A stretch of 64,000 bases of DNA from Thiomicrorhabdus sp. (lineage in GTDB: Bacteria > Pseudomonadota > Gammaproteobacteria > Thiomicrospirales > Thiomicrospiraceae): positions 2,562,985 through 2,626,984 of the forward strand of contig NZ_OY759719.1 of assembly GCF_963662555.1 (NCBI RefSeq), given 5' to 3'. The notes under the pieces are model-generated. The model was not told the DNA's origin, did no database searches, and saw nothing but the letters and a program-made list of their open reading frames with translations. Of the stretch, positions 19,882 to 56,944 are shown one piece after another (the stretch's first letter is position 1; each line of letters begins with the position of its first letter). The position numbers and the translations under genes are program-made.

Positions 19882-21000
19882 TTACTCCACAGACACCGGG
19901 ACATCATGCCCGTGTTCTTTAAGTAACGCATGGCGTTGTGCTACTTTTAAATCTGCGGCGACCATTTCAGCACACATTTCTTGTACGGTAATTTCTGGTG
20001 TCCAACCCAGTTTGGCTTTGGCTTTAGATGGGTCACCTAATAAGGTTTCAACTTCTGCAGGGCGGAAATATCTTGGGTCAATTTTAACAATTACATCACC
20101 CACTTTTAGGGCTGGGGCTTTATCGCCTTTAATCGCAGTAATGGTTCCAATTTCATCAATACCTTCACCGGTAAATTCTAAGGTAATGCCTAACTCTTCT
20201 GCAGACCAAGAGATAAACTGACGAACCGAATATTGCACACCCGTTGCAATCACAAAATCATCAGCTTTATCTTGTTGCAACATCATCCACTGCATACGCA
20301 CGTAGTCTTTTGCATGCCCCCAGTCACGTAAGGCATCAATATTACCCATATATAAGCATTGTTCTAAACCTTGGGCGATATTGGCTAAACCACGGGTGAT
20401 TTTACGGGTTACAAAGGTTTCACCACGACGAGGTGATTCATGGTTAAACAAAATACCGTTACAGGCATACATACCATAAGATTCACGGTAGTTTACAACA
20501 ATCCAATATGCGTACATTTTTGCAACCGCATAAGGTGAACGTGGGTAAAAAGGGGTGGTTTCTTTTTGAGGGATTTCTTGTACTTCACCATACAATTCGG
20601 AGGTAGAGGCCTGGTAGAATTTTGTTTTCTTTTCTAGCCCTAAAAGACGAATTGCTTCTAATAAACGTAAAGTTCCCATACCATCGACATCAGCGGTATA
20701 TTCTGGTGATTCAAACGATACGGCTACGTGAGATTGAGCACCTAAGTTATAAACTTCATCAGGTTGCACTTCTTGCAAAATACGCGTTAGGTTGGAGGAG
20801 TCGGTTAAATCACCGTAATGCAGAATAAAGTTTTTATTGTCGACGTGGGGATCTTGGTAGATATGGTCAACACGTTGAGTGTTAAACAAAGAAGCACGTC
20901 TTTTAATGCCGTGAACTTCATAGCCTTTTTCTAATAAAAATTCGGCTAAGTAAGAGCCGTCTTGGCCGGTTACACCTGTGATTAATGCTTTCTTTTTCAT
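19882..21000 (-). CDS. gmd: GDP-mannose 4,6-dehydratase
   Basis: The 372-residue protein has [19 protein letters not shown] at the start, the [11 protein letters not shown] loop, [17 protein letters not shown] and [17 protein letters not shown] (catalytic Y-x3-K). The glycine motif TGQDGSYL and the length are those of GMD. It forms a pair with fcl and is 2 nt downstream of glmS, so precursor synthesis genes are joined in one transcript. Confidence 0.97.
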
Positions 21001-53244: not shown

Positions 53245-53297
53245 TAAAACCTGCGGCAATGAAATGTGAACAGAATATAGTTTAATAATTTATTTAA

Positions 53298-53362
53298 TAG
53301 AAACAAAAAAGCCCGTACTTAAATCATTAAGTACGGGCTTTAAAATAGTGGCGGCTACACCG
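53298..53362. other. Left attachment site (duplicated terminator and tRNA-Met tail)
   Basis: The first 50 bp (53298-53347) are identical to 56895-56944 beside tRNA-Met. They contain the GCCCGTACTT-AAATCATT-AAGTACGGGC terminator. The next bases TGGCGGCTACACCGG match the tRNA 3' end (TGGTGGCTACACCGG on the plus strand) with one mismatch. This is what remains at the far end when an element integrates in the 3' end of a tRNA gene. The hairpin is also a working bidirectional terminator shape. Confidence 0.8.
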
Positions 53363-53423: not shown

Positions 53424-53444
53424 AATACCGTTAACAATACCGTT
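53424..53444 (+). repeat. Pair of AATACCGTT repeats (candidate integrase arm sites, left)
   Basis: AATACCGTT occurs at 53424-53432 and 53436-53444, direct repeats 12 bp apart, just inside the left end of the element. A matching copy and a one-mismatch inverted copy lie at the right end (56778-56825). Confidence 0.5.
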
Positions 53445-53457
53445 GAAACCCTAATAC

Positions 53458-54399
53458 TTAGTCTTTTAAAACAGACCTCGCCTTATCTTTAAAAGAAGAC
53501 TGAACCTGTGAAGCAGCACTTAGCCTCCCAACTAATCGCTGCTTGATCGAAGGCAATTCCAAAGGTGTTCCTTTTACCAATTTCCACTGTTCCATATCTT
53601 CAAAAATATTCTTGAGCTGTTGATTTTTAACCTTGGTTTGATTCCCATCAATAATCACGCCTGTCACAAGTTTTTTTTCGTTCTTTCCGTAGATACGCGT
53701 CTTTTCTTCATGAAGCCTGTGGTTATATCTGCCTACAATCTTTTTTAGTGTATTAAGTAGTAACTCATTTACACTATCTCCTGAAATAGTTAAATCGTCG
53801 ACATATACAGTAAATACCAAATTCAAGCTTTTACACAAATTATCAATCTCTTCAAACATTCCATGATTTGCCCAATACGCCATATGCATACTTAAGCGGC
53901 TTCCAGTAGGCAAACCATTTTTAAAACAACAAACGTCTGACATAAGACGTGCGATATCTCCCGGCATTTTAAAATCGTAAAAAAATAAACGAAAAACCAT
54001 CTCTTTACTAGTTGAAGGGAAAAACTTACGTATATCAGTAGTTAACAACTTCTTGTTACCTATATGCTGCTTAGCATTTGTAACATGAGAACGTTTCTTA
54101 AGGCCTGAATGAATGTCTATAGGAATAGCAATCCTACTCATCAGACTAGCTATTCTTGTGTGAATTGCTTCCAGCTCACTTATAGGTTGCTGTATTTCTC
54201 TCACATTACCTTTATCATTGTTCACATTAAAAACATTGTAAAAGGAATCGCTCGATAGTTTTTTAAGGGCTTTAGGAGAACAACCAAGAATATTGGCAAG
54301 TCTTTTTTTTGAAGAAACTTTATAAAATGGGGATTGGGTTATAGAATAACTTTTGCCTTTAGATTGTATTTTAGATAACGGCTTTTTCTTTTGAGTCAC
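53458..54399 (-). CDS. Retron-type reverse transcriptase
   Basis: The 313-residue RT shows the retron hallmarks NAKQH (residues 108-112; NAxxH), TDIRKFF (121-127, first catalytic Asp), GLPTGSRLS (162-170), YVDD (199-202) and VTG (245-247). Retron RTs prime on a structured RNA and make branched multicopy single-stranded DNA; many act with an effector in phage defence. It overlaps the upstream XRE gene by 29 nt. A candidate msr-msd lies upstream at 54943-55111. The length is normal and the catalytic residues are intact. It lies in the 3.6-kb element at tRNA-Met. Confidence 0.93.
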   Translation of the reverse strand: MTQKKKPLSKIQSKGKSYSITQSPFYKVSSKKRLANILGCSPKALKKLSSDSFYNVFNVNNDKGNVREIQQPISELEAIHTRIASLMSRIAIPIDIHSGLKKRSHVTNAKQHIGNKKLLTTDIRKFFPSTSKEMVFRLFFYDFKMPGDIARLMSDVCCFKNGLPTGSRLSMHMAYWANHGMFEEIDNLCKSLNLVFTVYVDDLTISGDSVNELLLNTLKKIVGRYNHRLHEEKTRIYGKNEKKLVTGVIIDGNQTKVKNQQLKNIFEDMEQWKLVKGTPLELPSIKQRLVGRLSAASQVQSSFKDKARSVLKD

Positions 54400-54685
54400 G
54401 CTCGATTACCCACTCTAAAGCACTAAGGACTTTACTAGATACAAATCCACGAAATTTCTCTGAAACTTTTGCATCTTTTGAGTTCATTGTTTCCGAGAAA
54501 AATATAAGGGAAGATACAGGCATATCATACATTTCTGCAATTTTTTCTAGCAGATCAATGCTGATTGTTTTTTTCCCTGACTCGATTTCAGATAAATAAG
54601 ATTTAGATATTGATAACTTCTGAGCAACTTCTGCTTGAGTCATCTTATTATATTGACGGAATGCCTTAATAGCTCTATGAATCAT
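54371..54685 (-). CDS. XRE-family helix-turn-helix protein of the retron operon
   Basis: The 104-residue protein has an XRE HTH over residues 5-60 (MTQAEVAQKLSISKSYLSEIE) and a helical tail. It starts after TTAGGAG and overlaps the RT start. A perfect palindrome TTCGCTA-T-TAGCGAA upstream of the shared promoter is a natural target, so it may repress the operon. It could also be a structural or antitoxin component, as small HTH proteins accompany RT in some retron groups. No catalytic domain is visible. Confidence 0.85.
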   Translation of the reverse strand: MIHRAIKAFRQYNKMTQAEVAQKLSISKSYLSEIESGKKTISIDLLEKIAEMYDMPVSSLIFFSETMNSKDAKVSEKFRGFVSSKVLSALEWVIERDSKEKAVI

Positions 54686-54723
54686 AAAATGAAACTCCTA
54701 AAAGAAATTGAGAGGAACACTGC

Positions 54724-54882
54724 CTAACCACCTCCTTCTTCAATGAACTTAATCGCTTCTCTAATCAAATCTGCTATGCGGATAACCCACAAAACAGCAG
54801 ACCAAGAAAGCTTTCTTTTCTTAGAGCTATCATCGGTTTTAGGTAGTATCTTTCGGTCATGATTAATATTTTTTTCTTCCAT
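54724..54882 (-). CDS. Small ORF (52 aa) in the retron operon
   Basis: ATG at 54882 follows AGAAGGATCC, a good ribosome site, and the frame ends at TAG 54724-54726, 38 nt before the HTH start. The product has a charged N-terminal half (to KKRK, about 21-24), an amphipathic hydrophobic segment LSWSAVLWVIRIADLI (25-40) and the end KFIEEGGG. It could associate with membrane or with a protein partner. I know no family. Its position, ribosome site and spacing support real translation. Confidence 0.6.
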   Translation of the reverse strand: MEEKNINHDRKILPKTDDSSKKRKLSWSAVLWVIRIADLIREAIKFIEEGGG

Positions 54883-54893
54883 AAAGGATCCTT

Positions 54894-54938
54894 CTGTTAA
54901 GCATTCAACGGAATTGTTGAATACGTCGCCATTAACAG
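54894..54938 (-). other. Hairpin before the small ORF
   Basis: CTGTTAA / TTAACAG form the outer stem and ATTCAAC / GTTGAAT the inner stem. The hairpin lies between the a2 repeat of the candidate msr-msd and the ribosome site of the 52-aa ORF, and its 3' arm touches the AGAAGGA site. It could separate the ncRNA from the mRNA (processing) or limit translation of the small ORF. Confidence 0.45.
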
Positions 54939-54942
54939 ATGG

Positions 54943-55111
54943 AACGAGAGTGACCAGAAACTAACCTCTCACTTCCGCGAATGCTGGTCGCCAGCATTCG
55001 CGCATCTCGCCTTATCGTCACAGTTACGGACATGGGCTCGACAAAATTTAGAGAACGAATTCTCTGCGAGTGTTTTTACACACTCTCTTTAGGTGGCGAA
55101 TATCTCTCGTT
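54943..55111 (-). ncRNA. Candidate retron msr-msd RNA
   Basis: The ends are AACGAGAG (a1, 55104-55111) and CTCTCGTT (a2, 54943-54950) on the minus strand, a perfect 8-nt inverted pair as retron a1/a2. Between them lie GAGTGT / ACACTC (55068-55085), AGAGAA-UUCG-UUCUCU (55050-55065) and a 12-bp perfect stem closing a 3-nt loop (54976-55002, CGCGAATGCTGG / CCAGCATTCGCG). This order of short msr-like stems then one long msd-like stem upstream of an RT is typical. The branching guanosine and exact ends are not determined. Confidence 0.6.
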
Positions 55112-55128
55112 TGATTAATCACGAACAA

Positions 55129-55157
55129 ATTATTAAACAAAAAGCATAGCAAGTCAA
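55129..55157 (-). promoter_or_regulatory. Sigma70-type promoter of the retron operon
   Basis: On the minus strand TTGACT (55152-55157), a 17-nt spacer and AATAAT (55129-55134, 5/6 to TATAAT). Transcription would start near 55121, about 10 nt before the a1 repeat. Confidence 0.6.
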
Positions 55158-55162
55158 CAAAA

Positions 55163-55177
55163 TTCGCTATTAGCGAA
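55163..55177. promoter_or_regulatory. Perfect palindromic operator upstream of the -35 box
   Basis: TTCGCTA-T-TAGCGAA is a 7-bp perfect inverted repeat with a 1-nt centre, ending 5 bp before the -35 hexamer. Its size fits an XRE dimer, most likely the product of 54371-54685. Confidence 0.5.
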
Positions 55178-55221
55178 CTTTTACAACCTATAAAATTTAT
55201 TTGACACACGTGAAGAAGCAA

Positions 55222-56214
55222 CTAAATACACAAATGCTTATTTGCAATTTTTAGCCTTTCATGCAGAAGGAAGTTGAAGACAAATGACTGTGCATTCTGC
55301 ATACTCATTGAGGGGGATTTAACCATTATGTCTGATATAAATGCCAATAACGCAATTTCAGTTGAGGGTATGAATTCGTAGCACTCCGAATCAAACGATG
55401 TATTCAAGAACATCCCTGTAATTAAATCAATTGTAGCCGCTTCATCAATAATGAACTCTTCAACGTTTACAGTCGATTCATCATCTATATCAAAAAATTC
55501 TACTGATACATGTTGATATTCAGATGCCAAATCCAAACCATCATAAAGAAGATCTTCTATAGTAAACTGGGATTTTCCATATGATAGAAATTCAAATACT
55601 ACATATATAAGAATTGAGGCTCCATGGAGATTTAATTTTCGAAGAGATTCTGAAGCTTCATCTTTTACGTAGTCATCCCAACGCAACCCTAAAGAAATTT
55701 CTGTTAGAAGGTCTACCTGACTTTTGTTCATAAAGCTTAATACTTGATTTGGAACAACATGATGAACTTTCATCGGAAATTTACTGTTGGACAAATCAGC
55801 AAGTGCATAATTTAACTTTTTTTTATGTTGTTTAAGGTCTGTACAATACAAAATATAGTAATCATCACATCCACTTTGCGAAGCATCTATAATCTGAGCT
55901 TTTAACGTTTTCAACCACTCAGTTTGATTCATATCATCAAACGATTTGACCTGAATACCAATCTTTGACCTGTCATAATCGTTATAGTAAGTGATAAGAA
56001 TATCTACACCTTTATCATTCATACCTTGTATTTCATGAGAAATATTTCCGTATTTCCCACAGCTTTGAATAATGAAATTAAATTTTTGATTAAATACTGG
56101 TAACAAGTCCTTATCATGCTTTAAAGAATTAAACCTTTCTGTTTCATCATCGTCAACAGGGCAACCTCCTGCCAATATTGAAAATATTAAATCTCGCTCT
56201 ACTGATAAATTCAC
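55222..56214 (-). CDS. PD-(D/E)xK nuclease-like protein beside the retron
   Basis: The 330-residue protein starts at GTG (56214) after AAGGAATAG. Residues 57-92 show NISHEIQG, KGVDILITYY and IGIQVKS, giving E61, D71 and Q88-x-K90, the Mrr-like form of the restriction-nuclease core. The C-terminal 200 residues are helical and acidic and match nothing I know. It lies upstream of the ncRNA promoter on the same strand. It could be the retron effector or an independent defence gene. Confidence 0.6.
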   Translation of the reverse strand: MNLSVERDLIFSILAGGCPVDDDETERFNSLKHDKDLLPVFNQKFNFIIQSCGKYGNISHEIQGMNDKGVDILITYYNDYDRSKIGIQVKSFDDMNQTEWLKTLKAQIIDASQSGCDDYYILYCTDLKQHKKKLNYALADLSNSKFPMKVHHVVPNQVLSFMNKSQVDLLTEISLGLRWDDYVKDEASESLRKLNLHGASILIYVVFEFLSYGKSQFTIEDLLYDGLDLASEYQHVSVEFFDIDDESTVNVEEFIIDEAATIDLITGMFLNTSFDSECYEFIPSTEIALLAFISDIMVKSPSMSMQNAQSFVFNFLLHERLKIANKHLCI

Positions 56215-56777: not shown

Positions 56778-56825
56778 GACGGTATTGAACAAAAATCAAA
56801 TTTTAGTGCCGTCAAGAATACCGTT
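56778..56825. repeat. AATACCGTT repeats (candidate arm sites, right)
   Basis: AATACCGTT at 56817-56825 (plus) and the inverted AATACCGTC at 56778-56786 lie between the integrase remnant and the tRNA. They match the pair at 53424-53444. The rest of the gap up to 56894 is AT-rich and without genes. Confidence 0.5.
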
Positions 56826-56894
56826 AGTTTTATGATTAAGTTACTAGATTAAGCATACACTAAAAAGACAAAAAAGCTTTTAAATTCGATATTT

Positions 56895-56944
56895 TAGAAA
56901 CAAAAAAGCCCGTACTTAAATCATTAAGTACGGGCTTTAAAATA
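56895..56944. other. Right attachment-side duplicate and tRNA-Met terminator
   Basis: 50 bp identical to 53298-53347. It holds the GCCCGTACTT / AAGTACGGGC hairpin with T run, the terminator of tRNA-Met on the minus strand. Confidence 0.8.

Follow-up and report, generated by a model that had tools for sequence, protein, structure and literature searches.

A chromosomal type VI retron from Thiomicrorhabdus and a possible RNA switch at the leader of its small-peptide gene

Organization of the Locus and Assignment to Type VI

A stretch of 64,000 nucleotides (nt) from Thiomicrorhabdus sp. (contig NZ_OY759719.1, forward-strand positions 2,562,985 to 2,626,984; hereafter the window, to which all coordinates refer) contains a set of minus-strand features that is bordered by a tRNA-Met gene on one side and by conserved chromosomal sequence on the other and comprises a gene for a nuclease-like protein of 330 amino acids (aa), an operator, a promoter-like site, a structured RNA, a 52-aa open reading frame (ORF), a gene for an XRE-family helix-turn-helix (HTH) protein and a gene for a retron reverse transcriptase (RT). 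An initial annotation had placed all of these parts correctly, apart from the label "PD-(D/E)xK-like" given to the 330-aa protein, which was not confirmed. The noncoding RNA (ncRNA), small ORF, HTH gene and RT gene constitute a type VI retron, a known type, of which four of the five parts originally listed are the normal content. The assignment follows from matches of the RT and HTH proteins to type VI models, from the position of the RT in a tree, and from the description of type VI retrons as an RT, a DNA-binding protein and a small auxiliary protein in a 2021 paper, which cites Mestre et al. (2020) for the type (PMC8541194). The earlier view that the locus could not be placed in a described type is thus superseded.

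The RT (53458..54399, 313 aa) starts at a GTG codon, and its frame overlaps the HTH stop by 29 base pairs (bp); an overlap of RT start and HTH stop occurs in 66 of 75 loci. NAxxH, YxDD and VTG are general motifs of retron RTs, and they are intact here, as had been stated, in the forms NAKQH, YVDD and VTG, with residues N108, A109, H112, D201, D202, T246 and G247 invariant among the 14 RTs compared. Against the PADLOC models the protein scores 318 bits with RT_VI and 163 bits with the next family. A midpoint-rooted tree with 53 rows, in which 34 of the 50 further nonredundant type VI RTs and 18 outsiders were included, places it inside a group of 35 HTH-linked RTs (support 100/99), so that the RT falls within retrons of this type. 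A sister group (L015–L020, support 100/100) has a divergent HTH; in five of its members (L015–L018 and L020) a longer ORF, 79–168 aa as called, precedes the HTH gene, and in L019 an HTH was not detected. A decayed 51-aa remnant of a type VI RT, 53% identical, lies elsewhere in another genome of the genus (G025, L002 around 1500–1704). A pattern scan of IMG/VR found no RT relatives.

The HTH protein (54371..54685, 104 aa) matches PADLOC HTH_VI with 114.5 bits and lies directly upstream of the RT, as is expected of type VI. Loci for comparison were gathered from phages, plasmids and chromosomes by tblastn, with the PADLOC model and by a scan of genome contigs; in the best 80 of 162 relatives from the genome scan, the HTH was detected by profile in 61, some of the other 19 being cut by contig ends. 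Comparisons of RNA words used 62 loci, 51 of them under 85% RT identity. L010, L039, L113, L119, L038 (which seemed divergent on inspection) and the distant L015–L018 and L020 had been set aside in advance; 11 more loci dropped out as the script's rule gave them no hairpin of the kind termed B below.

The Small Open Reading Frame Is a Conserved Gene

The 52-aa ORF (54724..54882) encodes a small, basic, amphipathic protein and supplies the small auxiliary protein expected of type VI. Requiring an ATG start, a length of 38–95 aa, a Shine-Dalgarno sequence and an end 12–75 nt before the HTH gene, we found a counterpart in 49 of the 51 nonredundant loci, whereas 20 rounds of shuffling gave 0.9 on average and never more than 3. 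The ratio of nonsynonymous to synonymous substitution rates is 0.10–0.59 in 15 related pairs, which share members. Across the 51 loci the protein has a median length of 54 aa and a median net charge of +6, and the N-terminal half is positive in 96%; the automatic choice of start codon is doubtful for a few loci (L091, L096). We take these comparisons to show that the small ORF is a true gene under purifying selection. Together with the HTH gene and the RNA it forms a genuinely co-conserved set of retron parts, as the initial annotation had proposed. Among 13 HTH-less loci looked at, nine (L036, L057–L060, L062, L065, L069 and L074) have a small basic peptide that is clear by eye directly before the RT. 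Retention of the peptide where the HTH is undetected fits a role of the peptide as candidate effector and of the HTH as regulator.

Anatomy of the Noncoding RNA

The RNA region (54883–55221) folds with a z-score of −4.37, none of 100 shuffled sequences being equally stable. Read from the 5′ end, the RNA begins with stem half P1 and a segment X, followed by two small hairpins (H0 and H1), hairpin A, which is variable, hairpin B, whose loop is GNRA-like, and finally stem half P1′ and hairpin D. The predicted "a1/a2" repeat is borne out as an 8-bp perfect complement between P1 (AACGAGAG, 55104..55111) and P1′ (CTCTCGTT, 54943..54950), so that, as in other retron RNAs, a structured msr-msd region is closed by a1/a2 repeats. 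Hairpin H1 (55050..55065) belongs to the msr; hairpin B (54976..55002), with a perfect 12-bp stem, belongs to the msd. Hairpin D (54889..54944) is the 5′ untranslated region (UTR) of the small ORF and holds its Shine-Dalgarno sequence, AAGGA (54889–54893), in the outer helix.

Comparison of loci supports the stems P1 and H1. Over both, 86.8% of cells are paired, 20 cells are changed on both sides (7.6 in shuffles), and the covariation score of 0.304 exceeds the shuffled value of 0.221 (0/500) and those of slid versions (at most 0.194); in H1 taken separately, 94.7% of cells are paired and three of five pairs show two-sided changes. When P1 is defined as the bases preceding X, its pairing is better with P1′ of the same locus than with P1′ of other lineages (5.35 versus 4.24; 0/5000, n = 34, seven of 41 loci being omitted since X was not placed). 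An RNAalifold analysis of a raw alignment of 24 leaders recovered only H1 owing to the variability of hairpin A, and we therefore compared words locus by locus with permutations. No retron family of Rfam was matched, relaxed thresholds included.

The Shine-Dalgarno sequence has a pairing probability of 0.77 in the window. It exceeds 0.5 in 46 of the 51 loci (median 0.83; mean z of leader folding −2.4), whereas shuffling of the leader 5′ of the Shine-Dalgarno sequence gave a mean of 37.5 and a maximum of 42 loci in 20 rounds; the mean pairing probability is 0.78, compared with 0.64 in shuffled leaders.

A Covarying Word in X, the msd Loop and the Leader Bulge

Comparison of the relatives revealed a feature of the type that we regard as new: a triple of short words that is placed around the leader of the small-peptide gene and, on the evidence of the compared loci, recurs type-wide. 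In the window, element X of the msr (UCGCCA, 55094..55099) is complementary both to a word formed by the msd loop and its closing bases (GGCGAC, 54987..54992) and to a bulge in hairpin D (UGGCGAC, 54925..54931), the latter two having GGCGAC in common. The calculated duplex energies are −8.5 kcal/mol for X with the UTR and −6.9 kcal/mol for X with the loop. The word varies by lineage, with 17 forms in all, some of them overlapping (GGCGA, GGTGAC, ACGAC, CGAGG, GCGAGA, CGAGAG, TGTGA and others). A triple word of at least 5 nt is present in 36 of the 51 loci and in 25 of 37 lineages, compared with permuted maxima of 22 and 18 of 51 and with 4 in a sense-strand control. It was found as well in three of eight HTH-less loci examined, as GTGAG or GTGAGA.

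Each pair of segments matches better within a locus than between lineages. Sharing of words between loop and UTR is 6.47 for a locus's own segments and 4.51 for those of other lineages (0/2000; two controls null), and the corresponding values for the reverse complement of the loop in the msr region are 5.18 and 4.52 (0/2000). When the bulge was placed by folding alone, which was achieved in 41 of the 51 loci, bulge and loop again shared more than expected (5.85 versus 3.71), as did the reverse complement of the bulge and the msr (5.59 versus 4.52) and that of the loop and the msr (5.15 versus 4.52), each with 0/5000; same-sense, reversed and unreversed-complement controls gave no excess in these 41 loci.

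Operator and Promoter

Upstream of the RNA lies a palindrome, TTCGCTAATAGCGAA (55163..55177), of the form TTCGC-N5-GCGAA, which occurs once in the 64-kilobase (kb) window, where 0.02 copies are expected, directly before the promoter-like site TTGACT-17-AATAAT (55129..55157). Of 72 type VI loci whose sequence reaches far enough upstream, 52 carry the exact palindrome, some 500 bp ahead of the HTH start (38 of 50 nonredundant loci), and eight of the remaining 20 have it with one mismatch; across all loci there are 57 copies in 803,772 nt. Sites of this promoter-like class are no commoner in the region than chance predicts (14 against 14.8 expected). Of the promoter with operator that had been annotated, the operator is thus upheld as unique and conserved, and the promoter has the support of its position. 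The conserved operator suggests autoregulation by the HTH protein.

The GCGAA half-site of the operator resembles the loop word, and we considered mimicry of the operator by the multicopy single-stranded DNA (msDNA) as a cause of the word. This was rejected because in L012, L048 and L055 the loop and UTR words become GGTGAC while the operator keeps TTCGC and GCGAA.

A Possible Switch and Its Alternatives

The covariation of the triple, and the presence of the small-ORF Shine-Dalgarno sequence in the leader hairpin, lead us to propose that the operon of this type VI retron, with its ncRNA, small protein, HTH and RT, includes an RNA switch by which reverse transcription would be coupled to translation of a toxin-like peptide, a proposal to which we give slightly less than even credence. 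The small peptide would be the effector, probably a membrane-active toxin, and the HTH protein would repress the operon. X could pair with either of two partners, the msd loop and the UTR bulge. Reverse transcription, by removal of the msd RNA, would leave X available for action on the UTR, which would keep the peptide off; the loop of the msDNA, which carries the X sequence as DNA, might act on the UTR likewise. A phage that disturbs the RT or the msDNA would then release translation of the peptide. The direction of such a switch is a guess, as it is not readable from sequence. The more specific proposal, that the type VI effector is a small peptide under translational control by pairing with the retron's own nucleic acid (X of the msr or the msDNA loop), with reverse transcription setting toxin output through an antisense antitoxin that the RT makes or frees, is a tentative one and in our judgment somewhat doubtful. 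A literature search, mostly surface-level and with the founding type VI paper outside its scope, found no retron effector controlled by such pairing.

Several observations weigh against a switch of this kind. The excess of Shine-Dalgarno pairing over shuffled leaders is only modest, and for this reason our confidence in the mechanism, and in the more specific proposal, is lowered. The triple words are short, mostly 5–7 nt; a word of 5 nt is lacking in 15 of the 51 loci, with L014 and L097 under 4, and 11 further loci, without hairpin B by the rule of the script, are unscored. Folding did not find the bulge in 10 of 51 loci and chose a wrong one in a few more. In the window itself, the partner of X in the fold of minimum energy is a third GGCGA (55011–55007), and the GNRA-like apical loop provides a second possible reason for the loop word. 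For P1 and H1, the number of pairs changed on both sides is only weakly raised (6 versus 4.0 in shuffles, 37/500), and pair types are not raised (13 versus 13.8). The operator is lacking in 12 of 72 loci even when one mismatch is allowed.

The shared words might instead be bound by the RT or HTH protein, which would recognize a GGCGA-like motif in both the msd loop and the small-ORF leader and exert feedback without base pairing. The identity of loop and UTR words, the strongest of the signals (6.47 versus 4.51), speaks for such a site, and it may extend beyond the complement in X (10 versus 5 nt in L044, 9 versus 4 nt in L053); however, X, as a third segment, shows complementarity and covaries across the 17 words, and the sense, reversed and unreversed-complement controls show no excess, which makes a protein site unlikely in our view. 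A purely structural role of X and the bulge is a little easier to envisage, though also improbable: the two might do no more than build the 3′ end of the ncRNA, as a pseudoknot beside P1 that positions the RT for priming, with the leader unregulated by it. X follows P1 directly and the bulge lies shortly after P1′, so that pairing of X and bulge makes a pseudoknot with P1, and the merely modest excess of Shine-Dalgarno pairing over shuffled leaders accords with such a role, but the same word occurs in the msd loop as well, and the bulge lies within the very hairpin that holds the Shine-Dalgarno sequence.

As to function, the locus could be an addiction module, similar to a toxin-antitoxin system, for mobile elements rather than a phage defense. 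Relatives are carried by plasmids, conjugative as well as mobilizable, and by Mu- and P2-like phages, and a conserved operator and a small toxin-like peptide would suit such a module. The copy in the window is chromosomal, however, and other retron types are described as anti-phage systems (PMC12548924); we consider addiction an unlikely function. The least probable of the alternatives, to which we give hardly any weight, is the five-part system of the initial annotation, with the upstream nuclease-like protein as effector. The 330-aa gene is adjacent, on the same strand and in the same tRNA-Met island, but it lies upstream of the retron operator and is absent from the 117 other loci surveyed (not all of which have long upstream stretches), and its only matches are 10 distant plasmid records, with none in 368 other genomes of the class and none among phage records.

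The Upstream Gene and the tRNA-Met Island

The 330-aa gene (55222..56214) was sought in 119 loci by a profile search of their ORFs and found only in L001 and L010, both from the window's own genome; 82 of these loci (L010 left out) have an RT together with an HTH, and for 63 of the 82 the sequence extends 1500 nt or more upstream of the HTH. The proposed survey of whether the neighbors travel with relatives of the RT therefore has a divided outcome, in that the HTH, small ORF and RNA do so and the 330-aa gene does not. Its protein has a weak match to Mrr_cat of Pfam (E = 0.13, below the curated cutoff), and scores 96.6 bits with NCBIfam XopAX (NF041411), far from the cutoff of 350 bits for membership. 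One of the distant plasmid records is labeled DUF4365. No match was found in viral contigs, and the 368 genomes of the same class mentioned above were an even draw from a larger group. No relative of solved structure was found, and an AlphaFold model made without an alignment was uninformative (mean predicted local distance difference test score 37.8) and was set aside. The gene is most plausibly a passenger of the island that lies outside the retron.

The retron and the 330-aa gene share an island of 3.6 kb inserted behind the tRNA-Met gene. Its ends are marked by a direct repeat, the terminator D1; one copy lies next to tRNA-Met (56878..56944) and the other at the opposite end (53281..53347), with 88% identity over 67 nt. 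Flanking direct repeats of 67 bp and an empty site in two of 29 other same-genus loci examined are as expected of a genomic island at a tRNA gene. In the two empty sites (L123 and L124), no more than about 130 nt separate tRNA-Met and its terminator from the counterpart of the left flanking gene, which in L125 lies approximately 0.9 kb further on; it is not within the available stretch in 26 of 30 same-genus loci, one of the 30 being the window's own. An integrase of its own, another mark of such islands, was not found among the six island ORFs in a Pfam search.

The motif AATACCGTTR is present at both edges of the island (53424–53445 and 56817–56826). It occurs four times in the window, once far off at 20452, compared with 0.17 expected, and the copies at the island edges are possible recombinase arm sites. 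A 14-nt palindrome, TACCAGGCCTGGTA, has 319 copies in the 2.7-megabase genome (reversed control, 0); its 12-nt core has 10 copies in the window (10590–57147; 0 expected), none of them within the retron island.

Relation to Known Systems and Significance

With type VI retrons the locus has in common the RT_VI group, an XRE HTH gene just upstream with overlapping frames and a small protein before the HTH, and we noticed no gene-level difference beyond the passenger gene and the site in a tRNA-Met island. The RTs of the Shewanella Mu-like phage MuM16-1 and of the P2-like ST147-VIM1phi7.1 and P2_2H1 (PMC8541194) are 44.7–45.5% identical to that of the window, and the three loci have the same order of small ORF, HTH and RT and the same RNA anatomy, whereas they are phage-borne and the window copy is chromosomal. 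PMC8541194 compares p31 of MuM16-1, which is on the opposite strand, with small proteins of other phages; an unannotated 48-aa ORF of this phage (L028, 2522–2668) fits the small ORF of the retron better than does p31. The P2-like phage version, a relative suited to laboratory work, has a match in 99 of 5426 complete Escherichia coli genomes, and in 98 of these the match covers 80% or more of its length. The open papers searched yielded no experiments on type VI retrons.

Type I toxins such as Hok and TisB are small, basic and hydrophobic or amphipathic peptides encoded behind a structured leader. The locus resembles them in its small peptide and structured leader, and differs in that the putative pairing RNA is the msr of the same transcript and is coupled to an RT. 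An HTH gene in a retron operon is also known from Retron-Sda1, which differs in RNA type and effectors: its RNA is of type III-A1 and is accompanied by HipA and DUF3037, a pair that gave defense without the RT (PMC12548924). In other retrons described there, complexes of RT, RNA and RT-DNA sequester an effector protein. If the switch proposed here is true, synthesis of msDNA in type VI retrons would be tied by base pairing to translation of a small toxin, a logic unlike that of the effector-sequestering complexes, and the word triple names the exact nucleotides that could be mutated in a relative amenable to laboratory work.

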